64,000 nt of DNA from Balneolaceae bacterium (GTDB lineage: Bacteria; Bacteroidota; Rhodothermia; Balneolales; Balneolaceae), in the NCBI GenBank assembly GCA_017640605.1, contig JAEPQH010000004.1, positions 62,001 to 126,000 of the forward strand, given 5' to 3'. The translations under genes were made by a program, and so were the position numbers. This document shows positions 55,979 through 61,121 of the stretch, in pieces; the first letter of the stretch is position 1, and the number at the start of each line of letters is the position of its first letter. The notes below the pieces were generated by a model. The model did not search any database. It was not told where the DNA came from and saw only the letters and a program-made list of their open reading frames with translations.

Positions 55979-56082
55979 GATTTTATCTGTTTGTTTTAAG
56001 ATTATAAATCATGATATCGCTCGATAAACTTTCAGATATCACACAAGTATCAAAAGAGTGTAACAAGCTTAGCGACTTCCAA

Positions 56083-56120
56083 AAAAAACAAAAGCTCCGA
56101 TACAATACGTGCCGGAGCTT
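56083..56120 (-). terminator. Intrinsic terminator after helicase-like gene
   Basis: Minus-strand AAGCTCCG (from 56120) pairs with CGGAGCTT (to 56092) around a 13-base loop, followed by a T-rich tract. It lies 34 bp downstream of the stop at 56154. Confidence 0.85.
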
Positions 56121-56153
56121 CCAACTTTGTGATTAATCGTTGTTGTAAGTCAA

Positions 56154-57977
56154 CTAGTTAAACAGTTTTTTTACCCAACCGAATACACCACCTTTTTCTT
56201 TCGATTCAGACGTTTCGCCGTTTCTACCACCGGAAAGTCCGTCGTAGGTTGGGCGAGGTAAACTTGGTCCTTTTCCTTGTTTTTTCGGTGCGGGTTTCTT
56301 TCTGCGATCTTTTGATTGCTGCCGATTATTGTTACCGGAACGTCCGCCGGATCTCCGATTATTATTTTTAGTAGACTTGTTATTCGGCTTATTCTTTTTA
56401 GGTGATTTTTTCTTCTCCACCAATTCTTCGGGTAGCGGAATTTCCTCCGGTGGATATCCCGCTTCTTTAGAAATACGGGCAATATCTTCGCGATCCATTT
56501 TGGATACTAACGAGATAATTTGTGCCGCTTTTCCATTTCCTACCAATTCTGCGCGATATCGATATTCGTCCATTTCGCTGGGTACGTCGTAATTAATTAC
56601 TTCGCCCACTTCGTTCATATCAATTTTTGTGGCTGATAATCCACCTACTAATAAAACACGCATGTTGTATTTATGGAATCGCTCGAAACGCTCGTTGTAG
56701 GTTGCCTCGTCTAGATCATCACCTAAACTTACCACTCCCCAACTTTTCTTGCGGATAATGCGGAACAGACGATCTGTGGTGCGGCTCGAAGCTGCAAATA
56801 CAACCACGCGCTTCGCTTTCGATTCTTCTAGATGAGCCATCAAGGTCGAAATCTTCATGCGCGGTGGCACGTTTATATAGGCCTGCTCTAAATGCTTTGG
56901 AATGGGAGCAGGTTCTTCGGTTGCATTCTCATCAGCAGTTTTAGCGGTTGTTTCGGTCTCAGAATCCTCATCAAGATCTTTCTTGAGTACTACCGATACT
57001 TCCGCTTCTTCGAGTTTTTCTTCTACTTTTTCGAGGTCGACAACTTCTTCGGTTTCGGAGACTGTTTCGGAAGCATCTTCTTCCTGATCATCTTCTAAAT
57101 CACTTTTCAAAACAACAGAAACATCAGCTTCTTCTAGCTTTTCTTCTACGCCGTTTAAGTCAATTTCAGATTCTTGGGCGTTCTCCGGTTGGCTCTCACT
57201 CTCACTGTCGCTATCTGCTTCTTGGTCTACGATATCTTTCTTCAGCACCACTTTTATCGAAGCCTTTTCCAGCTTTTCTTCTACTTCTTCAATATCGATA
57301 TCTGCAACTTCAGCTTCATCATTTGATGACGATTCACTCTTGCTTTCAGGTATAGTCTCTCCATCAAATCCAATGAGTTCAGGATTCTTTAGGGCAAGTT
57401 TTACTAGTTGTTTTGTGGCAGAATTTTGCTCTTGCGAAAGCATCACTATTTGTGGTTCGCAATCAACAAAGCGCAGAATATCCTTAACGCGATTCACCAG
57501 ATTAAACTGCTGCATCTCGTGGGCTTCATCAATCACAATCAGCTTGAGATTGTTGAGCCTGAAGTTATTCTTATCCAGTATTTCAATAAATCGACCGGGA
57601 TTAGCTACTATAACAGGTGCTCCTTCGTTCAGAGCTTTTTCCTGTGCTGCTTTATCTCCCTTCATTGCCATCAAGGCACTGCTTATTTGTGCGTGATAAC
57701 CGAGCGCCCAAACTTGTTCGTCTATTTTTTCAGCGCGTTCAATGGATGGTGTTAAGATTAAAACTTGTGTGCCATTTTCCTCTCCGTGTTCCGTAATTTT
57801 CTGCAATGCCGGTATTAAAAACGCAAGGTCATCGTTCGAGTGCGTTTCTACCAATGCGTGCTTTCCATCTAAAACTATTGGAAGCATTTTTTCCTGGAGA
57901 GGTGTTGGCTTTTCAATTCGTACATCGGCCAGCCCGCTCAATATTTCGGGGCTCAGGCCATATTTTTCAAAAGACAA
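56154..57977 (-). CDS. DEAD-box helicase-like protein with eroded ATPase motifs and an acidic triple-repeat insert
   Basis: A 607-residue protein with both RecA-like folds of a DEAD-box RNA helicase. The Q motif region (PTPLQEKMLP) is kept, but motif I is ETHSNDD (44-50) instead of AxTGxGKT, Ia is TPSIERA for PTRELA, Ib is NPGR, II is DEAH (150-153), III is LSQEQN for SAT, V is GGLSATKID for TDVAARGID and VI is YRYRAELVGNG for HRIGRxGR. Between the two folds an acidic insert (about 211-360) holds three copies of VEEKLEExxVxVVLKxDL (near 231, 276 and 317). The C-terminus (about 505-590) is strongly basic and N/G/R-rich. It is probably an RNA-binding scaffold without helicase activity. Confidence 0.9.
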   Translation of the reverse strand: MSFEKYGLSPEILSGLADVRIEKPTPLQEKMLPIVLDGKHALVETHSNDDLAFLIPALQKITEHGEENGTQVLILTPSIERAEKIDEQVWALGYHAQISSALMAMKGDKAAQEKALNEGAPVIVANPGRFIEILDKNNFRLNNLKLIVIDEAHEMQQFNLVNRVKDILRFVDCEPQIVMLSQEQNSATKQLVKLALKNPELIGFDGETIPESKSESSSNDEAEVADIDIEEVEEKLEKASIKVVLKKDIVDQEADSDSESESQPENAQESEIDLNGVEEKLEEADVSVVLKSDLEDDQEEDASETVSETEEVVDLEKVEEKLEEAEVSVVLKKDLDEDSETETTAKTADENATEEPAPIPKHLEQAYINVPPRMKISTLMAHLEESKAKRVVVFAASSRTTDRLFRIIRKKSWGVVSLGDDLDEATYNERFERFHKYNMRVLLVGGLSATKIDMNEVGEVINYDVPSEMDEYRYRAELVGNGKAAQIISLVSKMDREDIARISKEAGYPPEEIPLPEELVEKKKSPKKNKPNNKSTKNNNRRSGGRSGNNNRQQSKDRRKKPAPKKQGKGPSLPRPTYDGLSGGRNGETSESKEKGGVFGWVKKLFN

Positions 57978-58070
57978 TGTTACACCTCTTTCGTTTGGCT
58001 TATGTGTTCAATTTTCAAAGATCAATGTTCCACTCGGGAACGCCCTAATATACGAAAGATTGAAACAAGC

Positions 58071-59000
58071 TCAGGGATTTTCTTGGCTACGGCCCTCGTT
58101 TTGGAGATAAGAATTTGTAAAAACCGGAGCCATTTCCAGATTTCCCTTCTTTTTTCTGATCCAAATCACACATAAATAAGCAACCAGAATAATTGCCAGC
58201 GTACCAATTATGCCACCTTCCGGACCAAATGCTCCACCTGTCCACGTTGGATTGCCAGCTTGCTGAATCTGTATTAATGATCCGCGAATAGGCAGTCCAC
58301 TCACTCGAAACCCAAAGATGCCGCCTTGGGCAAAATTCCATGCAAAGTGAATGCCAACCGATAATGCTAAACGACCGGTTAACAAATATGGAATGGCGAG
58401 CATCACTCCGGCCAAAGCAATATTCACCAACGCTAATAGCGTGAGGTTGGGATTAAAACCATGAGCAACACTAAAAAATATTGAACTGAAAATTACCGCT
58501 CCGATGGTAGCCATAGTTGGAGATATTTTTCCCATGGTAAAACCTTCTTTAAAATTTGGGATTAGATACGACCGACTCATTACCTCTTCATAAAATCCCA
58601 CGTTCAGCATTTGAAAAAAGAAGATCAAGAAAGGGAATAACCAACTGTTTGATGCTGCATTTTGCCAACTAAATCCCATAAAAATGAGATCACCACTTGC
58701 GAGCTCCACCAGAAAAATAAAAAGCATGGCAAGTACAGCTATCACACACCCAACTCCAAATTCTTTCCACCAAAGGGGAGAAAGCTGTAACCCTGCTAGG
58801 CTGATATCGCTTCTATTATCTACAAAACGGAAGCTGATCCAGAAATACCCGAAAACCAGTGCGGAAGTAATCAGATATTGCACCCCATTTAGCGGTAATG
58901 AGTTTCCAATTGTGATGATGAGAAAGGAAAAAACCATAAATACCGGAATTCTAATTCCGGCTCGCATTCGCATCTCAGCTTTATTAATCAATGGATTCAT
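58071..59000 (-). CDS. CPBP-family intramembrane glutamic endopeptidase
   Basis: A 309-residue polytopic membrane protein of the CPBP/Abi type. Motif 1 is NVGFYEEVMSRSYL (paired Glu and Arg), motif 2 is FFSVAHGFNP (His) and motif 3 is GIHFAWNFAQGG (His and Asn), all in membrane helices of the second half. Family members cleave prenylated or membrane proteins and include Rce1 and bacteriocin-immunity proteins. It diverges from the SRAP-like gene. The substrate is unknown. Confidence 0.9.
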   Translation of the reverse strand: MNPLINKAEMRMRAGIRIPVFMVFSFLIITIGNSLPLNGVQYLITSALVFGYFWISFRFVDNRSDISLAGLQLSPLWWKEFGVGCVIAVLAMLFIFLVELASGDLIFMGFSWQNAASNSWLFPFLIFFFQMLNVGFYEEVMSRSYLIPNFKEGFTMGKISPTMATIGAVIFSSIFFSVAHGFNPNLTLLALVNIALAGVMLAIPYLLTGRLALSVGIHFAWNFAQGGIFGFRVSGLPIRGSLIQIQQAGNPTWTGGAFGPEGGIIGTLAIILVAYLCVIWIRKKKGNLEMAPVFTNSYLQNEGRSQENP

Positions 59001-59065
59001 ACTAAAGTCGATTCTAGGCTTGTTATAGCTTTTTATTATACCATTAAATTATTTCTCAATTCGCC

Positions 59066-59695
59066 ATGCAGCGATATGTTTTACAATCTACCCTTGATCA
59101 ACTACTCGACGAATTTGGCGCAATTTCTAGTCCTCATCAAACACTGAAATCAAATTTTAATGCAGCTCCCGGGCATCTCATGCCAATCGTTTACAAATCA
59201 AATGATCAACTCATGATGGATTTTGCCGTTTGGGATGCAACACAGCCTACGATTTCTATTGATGATGCATCACAAAAAACGCACATGCACTTTACCGAAG
59301 ACCCCTGCATTGTGCCCATCTCCGGTTTTTATATTTGGAAGGAAACCGTTAATGATCCGCTCCCATTTTTCGTCAGAATCCATTCACAACCGATACTGGC
59401 TATCGCCGCGTTTTTGACAAAAAAAGGGGAATTTCGAAATAGTTTTGCTGTTCTCACCCAAAGTGCAAATGTATTAATCCAACCGGTCGAACAGCAAATG
59501 CCGGCAATTCTTGCACCAAATCAACATAACGGATGGTTAATTGATGAAACCAACAACCTTATTCAGAGTGGATTTACACACAATACTATGATCCCCGACA
59601 TGACGGTATTTCGAGTTCCTGATTTAGTGAACGACCTCTCAAATAACGGCCCGGAACTTCTGCAACCTATCCCAAAGCTACGAGACGAAGACTAA
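59066..59695 (+). CDS. SRAP (YedK/HMCES-type) family protein lacking its catalytic residues
   Basis: A 209-residue protein with the SRAP fold order: MQRYVLQSTLDQLLDEFG, NFNAAPGHLMPIV, PCIVPISGFYIWKE, PFFVRIHSQPILAIAAFL and FAVLTQSANVLIQPVEQQMPAILAP. In active members the N-terminus is MCGR, so that Cys2 crosslinks to abasic DNA; here it is MQR and there is no Cys. The Glu in GFYEW is Ile90, and the His in HDRMP is Glu142. The Asn of NxAP is kept (Asn32). It could bind single-stranded or abasic DNA without crosslinking, or have a new function. The start codon is well placed after AT-rich promoter sequence. Confidence 0.85.
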   Translation: MQRYVLQSTLDQLLDEFGAISSPHQTLKSNFNAAPGHLMPIVYKSNDQLMMDFAVWDATQPTISIDDASQKTHMHFTEDPCIVPISGFYIWKETVNDPLPFFVRIHSQPILAIAAFLTKKGEFRNSFAVLTQSANVLIQPVEQQMPAILAPNQHNGWLIDETNNLIQSGFTHNTMIPDMTVFRVPDLVNDLSNNGPELLQPIPKLRDED

Positions 59696-59715
59696 GGCAC
59701 TGTGTAGATGTATCC

Positions 59716-60651
59716 TTACTGATCTTTCGGTTTTGTACCCGGTTTACCCTCAACAGGATTTTCGTAGTAGCGAATGGTGGGATAAGCGAAGTCAATATCG
59801 TCGTGTTTTGCAAATTCATCCAAAACTTGCTCCCAAATAATCTGAGATGTTCCTCTTCTTTTACGAGGATTGGTGAGATATCGAACCGTTAAGTTAATCC
59901 CGCTATTTTTGACATCTGTATATACGATAGGGGTGAGATATTTAAACTCAATTAAATACGATTTCGATGCCTTTGCAATTTGGCGCTCCGCACTTTGTAT
60001 AAACTCCTGCGAAACTTCATCAATAATCTCAAAAAGAATGGTTTTTGCTTTTTTCCAATCGCTTTCGAAGGTTACCAACACCTGAATCTCGTTCCAGATG
60101 AACTCAAAATCGCTGGTGTAGTTTGCAAGATGATGCAAAAACACTTTATGATTAGGCACATGGATGACCCGCCCGGTACTTTGGTCGGCACCCACCCAGT
60201 TTCCGATCTCAAGAATGGTGAATTTAAAAGGGCGAATATCAATTACGTCACCTTTATAGGTGTCCAACTCTATTCTATCACCCACATCAAATGGTCGCCT
60301 CCAAATGATGAATAACCATGCGGCTAAATCGGTTACCGGATCTTTAAGTGCAATGGCAATACCGGCGCTAAGCAATCCTAAAAATGTAGCCAGCGACTGT
60401 ATTCCCGAGTACCAAATTTGAACAACTACCAGAAACCCTATAAAAAAACTACCATAGGATAGGTTTTTACGCCATTTATATTGGGTACGTTTGTTCTCGG
60501 TTTGATTATTTACAATTCGCAGAATAATGAGTCGCAACAACCATAGGAGCACAAATACACCAATAGTCTCGATGATTTTTGCGGTGAGATCAGGAGAGTT
60601 CAGGAAGTAGTCGCCCAATGCCTGTCGTATATTTTCAACTCGTTCGCCCAT
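59716..60651 (-). CDS. MscS-family mechanosensitive channel
   Basis: A 311-residue channel protein. Two or three N-terminal helices (about 25-45, 67-83, 85-100) end in the pore-lining LGLLSAGIAIALKDPVTDLAAW, followed by the conserved beta domain WRRPFDVGDRIELDTYKGDVIDI, VHVPNHKVF-like (here VIHVPNHKVFLHHLANYT) and an alpha/beta tail ending near residue 295. Such channels release solutes on osmotic downshock. The family is broad and this member is not close to canonical MscS. It diverges from secG with the shared promoter region described. Confidence 0.9.
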   Translation of the reverse strand: MGERVENIRQALGDYFLNSPDLTAKIIETIGVFVLLWLLRLIILRIVNNQTENKRTQYKWRKNLSYGSFFIGFLVVVQIWYSGIQSLATFLGLLSAGIAIALKDPVTDLAAWLFIIWRRPFDVGDRIELDTYKGDVIDIRPFKFTILEIGNWVGADQSTGRVIHVPNHKVFLHHLANYTSDFEFIWNEIQVLVTFESDWKKAKTILFEIIDEVSQEFIQSAERQIAKASKSYLIEFKYLTPIVYTDVKNSGINLTVRYLTNPRKRRGTSQIIWEQVLDEFAKHDDIDFAYPTIRYYENPVEGKPGTKPKDQ

Positions 60652-60675
60652 TTTATTTTCAGGAATTGCTTTTGC

Positions 60676-60707
60676 TTGGTTTCATATTCAAAATTTGGGT
60701 ATATTTG
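60676..60707 (+). promoter_or_regulatory. Bacteroidota-type promoter of secG
   Basis: TTG at 60676-60678 and TATATTTG at 60700-60707 are 24 bp apart start to start, matching the -33 TTG and -7 TAnnTTTG pattern. The secG start codon is 30 bp downstream. Confidence 0.6.
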
Positions 60708-60737
60708 TAATCTTTTGAAAGTTTAGTTGATTACAAA

Positions 60738-61121
60738 ATGCTTTACAACATAATTATTGCTGTTATCACAATTATTTGCGCGCTATTAACTCTGGTAGTG
60801 TTGCTACAAAACGGACAGGGACAAGGTCTTTCCGGAATTGGCGGGGGCGGTGGATTAGACGCCGGTGCAGGTGGCTTAGGCGCCCGCAGAACTGCTGATT
60901 TACTATCTCGAGCAACTTCTATTTTAGGTGGCGCTTTTTTGGTTCTTTGTGTTCTTGCAAACTTTGCGATTGATCGCCAGCAAACCGGAAACTCGGTATT
61001 ACAACAAGGCGCGCCGCTAAACGATATTAGCGCTCCTTCGCAAACACAATCTGCAGTACCGATGCAAACACCTCCTCCTCCAGCAACGAACGAGGACAAC
61101 GGCAACGACGACAATAACTAA
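60738..61121 (+). CDS. secG: Preprotein translocase subunit SecG
   Basis: A 127-residue protein with two membrane helices (about 4-22 and 52-75), a cytoplasmic GQGLSGIGGGGG stretch between them and the conserved ARRTADLLSRATSILGGAFL segment before the second helix. These are the marks of SecG, the accessory subunit that increases the efficiency of SecYEG translocation. The C-terminus (about 85-127) is a long, Q/P/N/D-rich extension, longer than in most SecG. It ends at a strong terminator. Confidence 0.95.
   Translation: MLYNIIIAVITIICALLTLVVLLQNGQGQGLSGIGGGGGLDAGAGGLGARRTADLLSRATSILGGAFLVLCVLANFAIDRQQTGNSVLQQGAPLNDISAPSQTQSAVPMQTPPPPATNEDNGNDDNN

Follow-up and report, generated by a model that had tools for sequence, protein, structure and literature searches.

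The window analysed here, a stretch of 64,000 nucleotides from a Balneolaceae genome (GenBank assembly GCA_017640605.1, contig JAEPQH010000004.1, positions 62,001 to 126,000), carries a gene for a DEAD-box protein with altered catalytic motifs, referred to below as the pseudohelicase (Table 1). The DEAD-box family assignment covers both RecA domains and is based on Pfam and PDB sequence searches: the Pfam matches were DEAD (3e-21, residues 25–181) and Helicase_C (3.4e-9, residues 375–475), and the two RecA-like domains follow each other in DEAD-box order, as in the DEAD-box (SF2) fold. The frame, which is on the minus strand, is open over 607 codons, as had been claimed in an earlier, sequence-only reading of the locus. 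Both RecA folds were predicted to be intact (AlphaFold with 58 sequences, pLDDT about 89–98) and the linker and the tail to be disordered, with a short helix predicted at residues 599–605. Foldseek and VIA-align with this model gave DEAD-box proteins throughout, the top matches included, and RecA1 alone matched eIF4A-type domains with an rmsd of 1.4–1.6 Å over approximately 200 residues; such likeness of fold by itself demonstrates no function. The TTG start (57975–57977) was kept in 41 of 47 orthologues, with GTG present in four, and a TTG start at the matching place was also apparent in most active RhlE-type paralogues of the order (e.g., L144, L147 and L150).

Table 1. Features of the pseudohelicase gene and its leader (positions in the window).
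Feature	Positions	Strand	Remarks
Conserved promoter-like TATATT, probable -7 box	58047..58052	(-)	Balneolaceae rrn promoters have TATCTTTG
5'UTR hairpin GTTCC-loop-GGAAC	58027..58041	(-)	arms vary among orthologues, pairing kept
Conserved leader block GATCTTTGAAAATTGAAC, tentatively boxA-like	58006..58023	(-)	near-invariant
Shine-Dalgarno AGAGGTG ahead of the TTG start	57983..57989	(-)
Pseudohelicase gene	56154..57977	(-)	607 codons/607 aa, TTG start
RecA1 fold, aa 1–206, catalytically dead	57360..57977	(-)	AlphaFold pLDDT 91–98; synonymous sites unusually conserved
Coding hairpin AGCCC/GGGCT, codons 9–15	57931..57953	(-)	compensated at synonymous positions
Motif I position ETHSNDD, aa 44–50, without Walker A Lys/Thr	57828..57848	(-)	alignment; active = AQTGTGKT
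Motif II DEAH, aa 150–153	57519..57530	(-)	varies across orthologues
Motif III position SQE, aa 181–183	57429..57437	(-)	active = SAT
Acidic disordered linker insert, aa 207–360	56898..57359	(-)	pLDDT mostly <50
Repeat 1 EVEEKLEKASIKVVLKKDI, residues 231–249	57231..57287	(-)
Repeat 2 GVEEKLEEADVSVVLKSDL, residues 276–294	57096..57152	(-)
Repeat 3 KVEEKLEEAEVSVVLKKDL, residues 317–335	56973..57029	(-)
RecA2 fold, aa 361–516, most conserved domain	56430..56897	(-)	14 pseudohelicase-only invariant residues
Motif V position VLLVGGLSATKI, aa 441–452	56622..56657	(-)	alignment
Motif VI position DEYRYRAELVGNG, aa 470–482, arginine fingers lost	56532..56570	(-)	alignment
Basic low-complexity tail	56262..56429	(-)
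Family signature LPRPTYDGLSGGRNG	56217..56261	(-)
C-terminal amphipathic helix GGVFGWVKKLFN	56157..56192	(-)	resembles C-terminal helix of active RhlE-type paralogues

At 58071–61121 and at the orthologous loci, genes for a CPBP-family membrane protease, an SRAP-like protein, an MscS-like channel and a SecG-like protein adjoin the pseudohelicase in most Balneolaceae, the common order being secG - mscS - SRAP - CPBP protease - pseudohelicase. Since CPBP is missing beside the pseudohelicase in several genomes, the gene order was not taken to indicate an operon partner.

The linker between the RecA folds is acidic (57 D/E vs. 13 K/R over 154 aa) and contains the three repeats (63–68% DNA identity) described in the earlier reading. 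Their place at the centre of the protein's design was not borne out: three copies were present only near the source genus, while neighbouring genera had one or two and most of the family had none (counted with one fixed pattern, by which degenerate copies may be missed), and they are located where the gene evolves fastest. The limited number of genera with repeats marks the triple repeat as a late, lineage-specific elaboration.

Catalytic motifs and distribution in the Balneolaceae

Alignment with active relatives confirmed the absence of Lys and Thr at the motif I position, the replacement of motifs III, V and VI and the degradation of motif Ia (TPSIERA vs. SPTRELA in active proteins), all previously read from the single sequence. 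Motif V is GGLSATKID compared to ATDVLARGID in active relatives, motif VI is YRYRAELVGNG compared to YIHRIGRTGRY, and the GG motif is degraded to MKG. As the canonical RNA-contact motifs Ia, GG and V are among those degraded, it is doubtful that the core binds RNA. The Q-motif residues F3 and Q28, motif Ib (NPGR), motif IV and DEAH are still present in the source species; however, the persistence of DEAH noted earlier does not extend to the family, with E found in 21 of the 41 aligned orthologues and the fourth residue being H in 21 and D in nine.

Compared to the bacterial RhlE/CshA-type helicases, its parental group, the pseudohelicase is similar in fold, domain order, Q motif and (in relatives of this order) the C-terminal amphipathic helix, but the ATP-binding motif, SAT, RGxD and HRxGRxxR are missing from every orthologue and conservation is shifted to RecA2. 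P-loop GKT, SAT, RGxD and HRxGRxxR were found in none of the 41 aligned orthologues; among the hallmarks of a DEAD-box enzyme, motif I GxGKT (absent in 41/41), D-E-A-D, SAT, RGxD and HRxGRxxR are all wanting. GKT, SAT and motif VI were intact in nearly all active paralogues from those genomes, the few exceptions being masked or contig-cut copies. The near-invariance of F3, Q28 and D150 among the orthologues would fit a protein that is still an enzyme and binds nucleotide non-canonically by way of the Q motif and the acidic motif II that remains, and the persistence of DEAH and the Q motif here means that some residual nucleotide binding may be retained; yet an enzyme is very unlikely in view of the P-loop Lys/Thr found in 0/41 orthologues, the motif II E in just 21/41 and the lost arginine fingers.

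When relatives were searched, most Balneolaceae genomes proved to have a clear orthologue, among them Balneola, Fodinibius and Aliifodinibius. A full-protein profile built from 19 orthologues and run on a phylum-wide sample of 296 genomes gave 573–708 bits for 36 of 36 Balneolaceae genomes and at most 287 bits for everything else, the active paralogues of the same genomes included. A second profile, restricted to the C-terminal 33 positions, was run on 92 Balneolaceae genomes and on 36 from other families of the order: a full match, one per genome, was obtained in 80 of the former and in none of the latter. Of the remaining 12, three were incomplete genomes (57–81%) and the other nine were all those of g5, the one genus of the family lacking the gene. 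Absence from 9/9 g5 genomes indicates that the pseudohelicase is not indispensable everywhere; the nine genomes searched (G006, G352–G359) are 1.4–2.7 Mb in size. A presumed absence from the small genomes G016 and G022 was rejected, since both proved to hold highly divergent orthologues in which this C-terminus is kept. The orthologues at L137:1498–3330 and L140:221–2098, from small genomes (1.5–1.8 Mb), have approximately 20% identity and keep the C-terminal signature. In G015 (L019; G015:C6:211269–211361) the signature lies out of the frame of the main ORF, which points to an assembly error or a frameshift close to the end of the gene.

A tree was built from 80 proteins, of which 42 were pseudohelicases and 38 active helicases. 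A single branch with an SH-aLRT support of 100 split the pseudohelicases from the active helicases, the former being placed beside the RhlE-type proteins of their own order; this split is firm, while the inner placements are unsure owing to long branches. As judged from the tree, the alignments and the predicted structures, an RhlE-type gene gave rise to the pseudohelicase copy once, in or before the Balneolaceae ancestor, and this copy lost its ATP-binding and arginine-finger residues and kept both RecA folds and the C-terminal helix. By the alignment, the motif loss is ancestral to the pseudohelicase family. The sequence-only reading had named intact homologues, with only this copy altered, as the result that would speak against it; the homologue comparison gave no such case, and the loss was common to 41 of 41 aligned orthologues.

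Selection on the protein

The dN/dS ratios, also proposed earlier as a check, were low across the folds (0.005–0.25): in sister pairs they were 0.05–0.25 for RecA1 and 0.005–0.07 for RecA2, the linker and the tail changing faster than the RecA folds. Mean identity among the pseudohelicases was 0.45 in RecA1 and 0.60 in RecA2, compared to 0.65 and 0.57, respectively, among the active RhlE-type proteins. The pseudohelicases have lost 37 of the invariants seen in active proteins and have gained 14 new ones, 14/14 in RecA2. This inverted conservation, together with the lost and new invariants, indicates a change of function and not decay; by sequence and model, the constraint that the copy came under is new and falls chiefly on RecA2 and the C-terminal signature.

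A decaying helicase copy with a frame open by chance might account for the many motifs gone and for a RecA1 less conserved than in active copies, but the frame is open, as a single copy, in almost every genome of the family, dN/dS is far below 1, new invariants are present and the C-terminus is conserved. The family-wide distribution and the dN/dS values refute decay, whose probability we consider negligible. The earlier view of a selected and repurposed protein is upheld by the shared loss, the one origin, the dN/dS and the 14 invariants. A kept helicase fold, lost catalytic motifs and a protein under selection place the gene in the pseudohelicase class, and we are highly confident that it is ATPase-dead and selected.

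The mRNA leader and the start of the coding region

In the leader, the TATATT box is followed by a hairpin at a fixed place and then by GATCTTTGAAAATTGAAC. The 5'UTR hairpin pairs in 19/19 sequences (95/95 cells, compared to a mean of 74 with the arms swapped between species), the arms having been chosen as the best stem per sequence, a choice that favours pairing. The hairpin within codons 9–15 reads either AGCCC/GGGCT or AGTCC/GGACT and is compensated in 19/19; variation is confined to a single one of the five pairs and is seen in no fewer than two lineages. All 14 sister pairs showed less synonymous change in the RecA1 half (p < 0.01 in 10), with the suppression strongest over the first 70 codons. 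Between the source genome and a congener, the pS of the pseudohelicase was 0.30 in RecA1 and 0.67 in RecA2, and that of the active gene in this genome pair 0.65 and 0.77; in active RhlE-type genes the difference between RecA1 and RecA2 was mostly not significant. An overlapping gene was rejected as the explanation for the conserved synonymous sites by stops in every other frame across the orthologues, and codon bias or general conservation by the nearly flat profile of the active RhlE-type genes beyond the first 25 codons. A search of 56000–58400 against Rfam yielded no match at E values of up to 1. The conserved structured leader and start region suggest that the mRNA would be under tight, possibly autogenous, control.

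The block in the leader is similar to the boxA found in rRNA leaders of Balneolaceae, although the match is imperfect (GATCTTTG vs. GTTCTTTG). The comparison, in which relatives were used (the source assembly contains no 16S), set GATCTTTGAAAA here against GTTCTTTGAGAA in related rRNA leaders; this is not kept in clade 2, most of which is without TTCTTTG, and L172 (GTTATTTG) is altered at a boxA position shown to matter in PMC5725501. A repeated genomic element was rejected, as the 15-mer occurs once in the genome with one mismatch allowed. In Escherichia coli, mRNA boxA sites control genes of the Nus complex (PMC5725501), and the block, like that of the suhB-type boxA-controlled leaders of that work, lies in the 5'UTR close to the ribosome site, but it belongs to another phylum, matches imperfectly and is not family-wide. 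We regard a boxA-type element as a tentative lead.

The RecA1 synonymous suppression in 14/14 pairs, the covarying 5'UTR hairpin with the compensated coding hairpin and the boxA-like block with its E. coli precedent would also fit a 5' half kept largely as regulatory RNA, i.e., an autoregulatory or Nus/boxA-type leader reaching into the coding region, the protein acting in an antitermination or ribosome-assembly circuit. Selection is evident at the protein level too, however, and with the imperfect match, the changed key position of L172 and the TTCTTTG missing from most of clade 2, we regard this alternative as decidedly improbable.

The C-terminal helix and a possible function

The tail is basic (26 K/R vs. 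7 D/E over 90 aa), in agreement with the basic RNA-binding-type tail of the earlier reading, which missed the conserved signature and the short amphipathic helix at its end. This C-terminus (LPRPxYDxLSGGRxG, then GxxGxxKKLF) is the best-kept feature of the pseudohelicases. The active RhlE-type paralogues of Balneolaceae end in KPxKGIWGLIKSFxPKF and the pseudohelicase in GGVFGWVKKLFN, variants such as KRGVWSKIKNIFG being found in the active paralogues from other families of the order. The helices of both proteins are short and amphipathic (moments 0.44–0.56); conserved amphipathic C-termini of active RhlE-type helicases were seen in L144, L147–L148 and L150–L161. In the active helicases this helix possibly serves membrane or degradosome docking. 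From the similar helices a common docking site (membrane or protein) can be proposed, and the chance that the pseudohelicase docks where the active RhlE docks appears to us only slightly below even; the likeness is short and could be convergent.

The similar helices and the coexistence of the active paralogue in the same genomes also suit a regulatory partner of the active RhlE-type helicase, which would compete for, or pair at, the same docking site and tune the helicase with no RNP scaffold of its own. The new RecA2 invariants point beyond simple competition, however, and the docking partner of the helix is postulated; we consider such a regulatory role unlikely.

The overall reading that we favour, as fairly probable, is a fixed, family-wide DEAD-box pseudohelicase working without ATP as an RNP scaffold or a helicase cofactor; that it acts as scaffold or cofactor and not as an enzyme is by itself likely. 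We infer the lack of ATPase, RNA binding, docking and pathway from sequence and predicted structure. On this reading the basic tail would bind RNA loosely and RecA2 would serve as the interface to other proteins. The anchor at the place of the active RhlE-type paralogue (the membrane or a partner) would be the C-terminal amphipathic helix; once docked, the pseudohelicase might recruit or restrain the active helicase, and its own mRNA would be controlled tightly, possibly autogenously, through the structured leader and start region. The "RNA scaffold" of the sequence-only reading is in this respect plausible. Ribosome assembly or mRNA turnover would be the likeliest process, although a role specifically in ribosome assembly is rather doubtful.

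The nearest known case is Utp25/Def of the eukaryotic SSU-processome, an essential inactive DEAD-box protein proposed as a cofactor (PMC9539457). Both are conserved, keep the DEAD-box fold with vestigial motifs and have a disordered repetitive region, and a non-catalytic cofactor or scaffold role has been proposed. In contrast, Utp25 is eukaryotic and its disordered region is N-terminal, that of the Balneolaceae protein lying between the RecA domains, and the latter originates beside bacterial RhlE-type helicases, as judged from the tree of pseudohelicases and active helicases. The Utp25 model was absent from the Pfam matches of the pseudohelicase at E 0.001. The resemblance would be one of analogy in working principle, with kinship no closer than the DEAD-box fold. 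A full bacterial counterpart of Utp25, i.e., a family-specific RNP or ribosome-assembly scaffold docked via the C-terminal helix that it shares with the active helicase and subject to autoregulation through a structured mRNA start with an rRNA-leader-like boxA, seems to us quite unlikely.

Pseudohelicases as a kind are already known from Utp25 and Deinococcus PriA (PMC9539457, PMC4504706). The D. radiodurans PriA is likewise bacterial and helicase-derived and is reported to have no meaningful ATPase while still binding nucleic acids and partners, but it is a DNA helicase of replication restart and not a DEAD-box RNA helicase (PMC4504706). The pseudohelicases proposed by 2022 numbered only two, and no bacterial DEAD-box protein was among them (PMC9539457). 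An open-access literature search, with most subscription journals outside its range, found no inactive bacterial DEAD-box protein. To our knowledge, no bacterial DEAD-box pseudohelicase has been described.

Generic DEAD/Helicase_C models will probably annotate the pseudohelicase as a helicase, which would be wrong for its function. RNA-level selection overlaps a coding region here and makes the gene a candidate for autoregulation. Being present in single copy across the family, with one origin and active sisters in the same cells, the pseudohelicase offers a direct test of what the DEAD-box fold may do without ATP.
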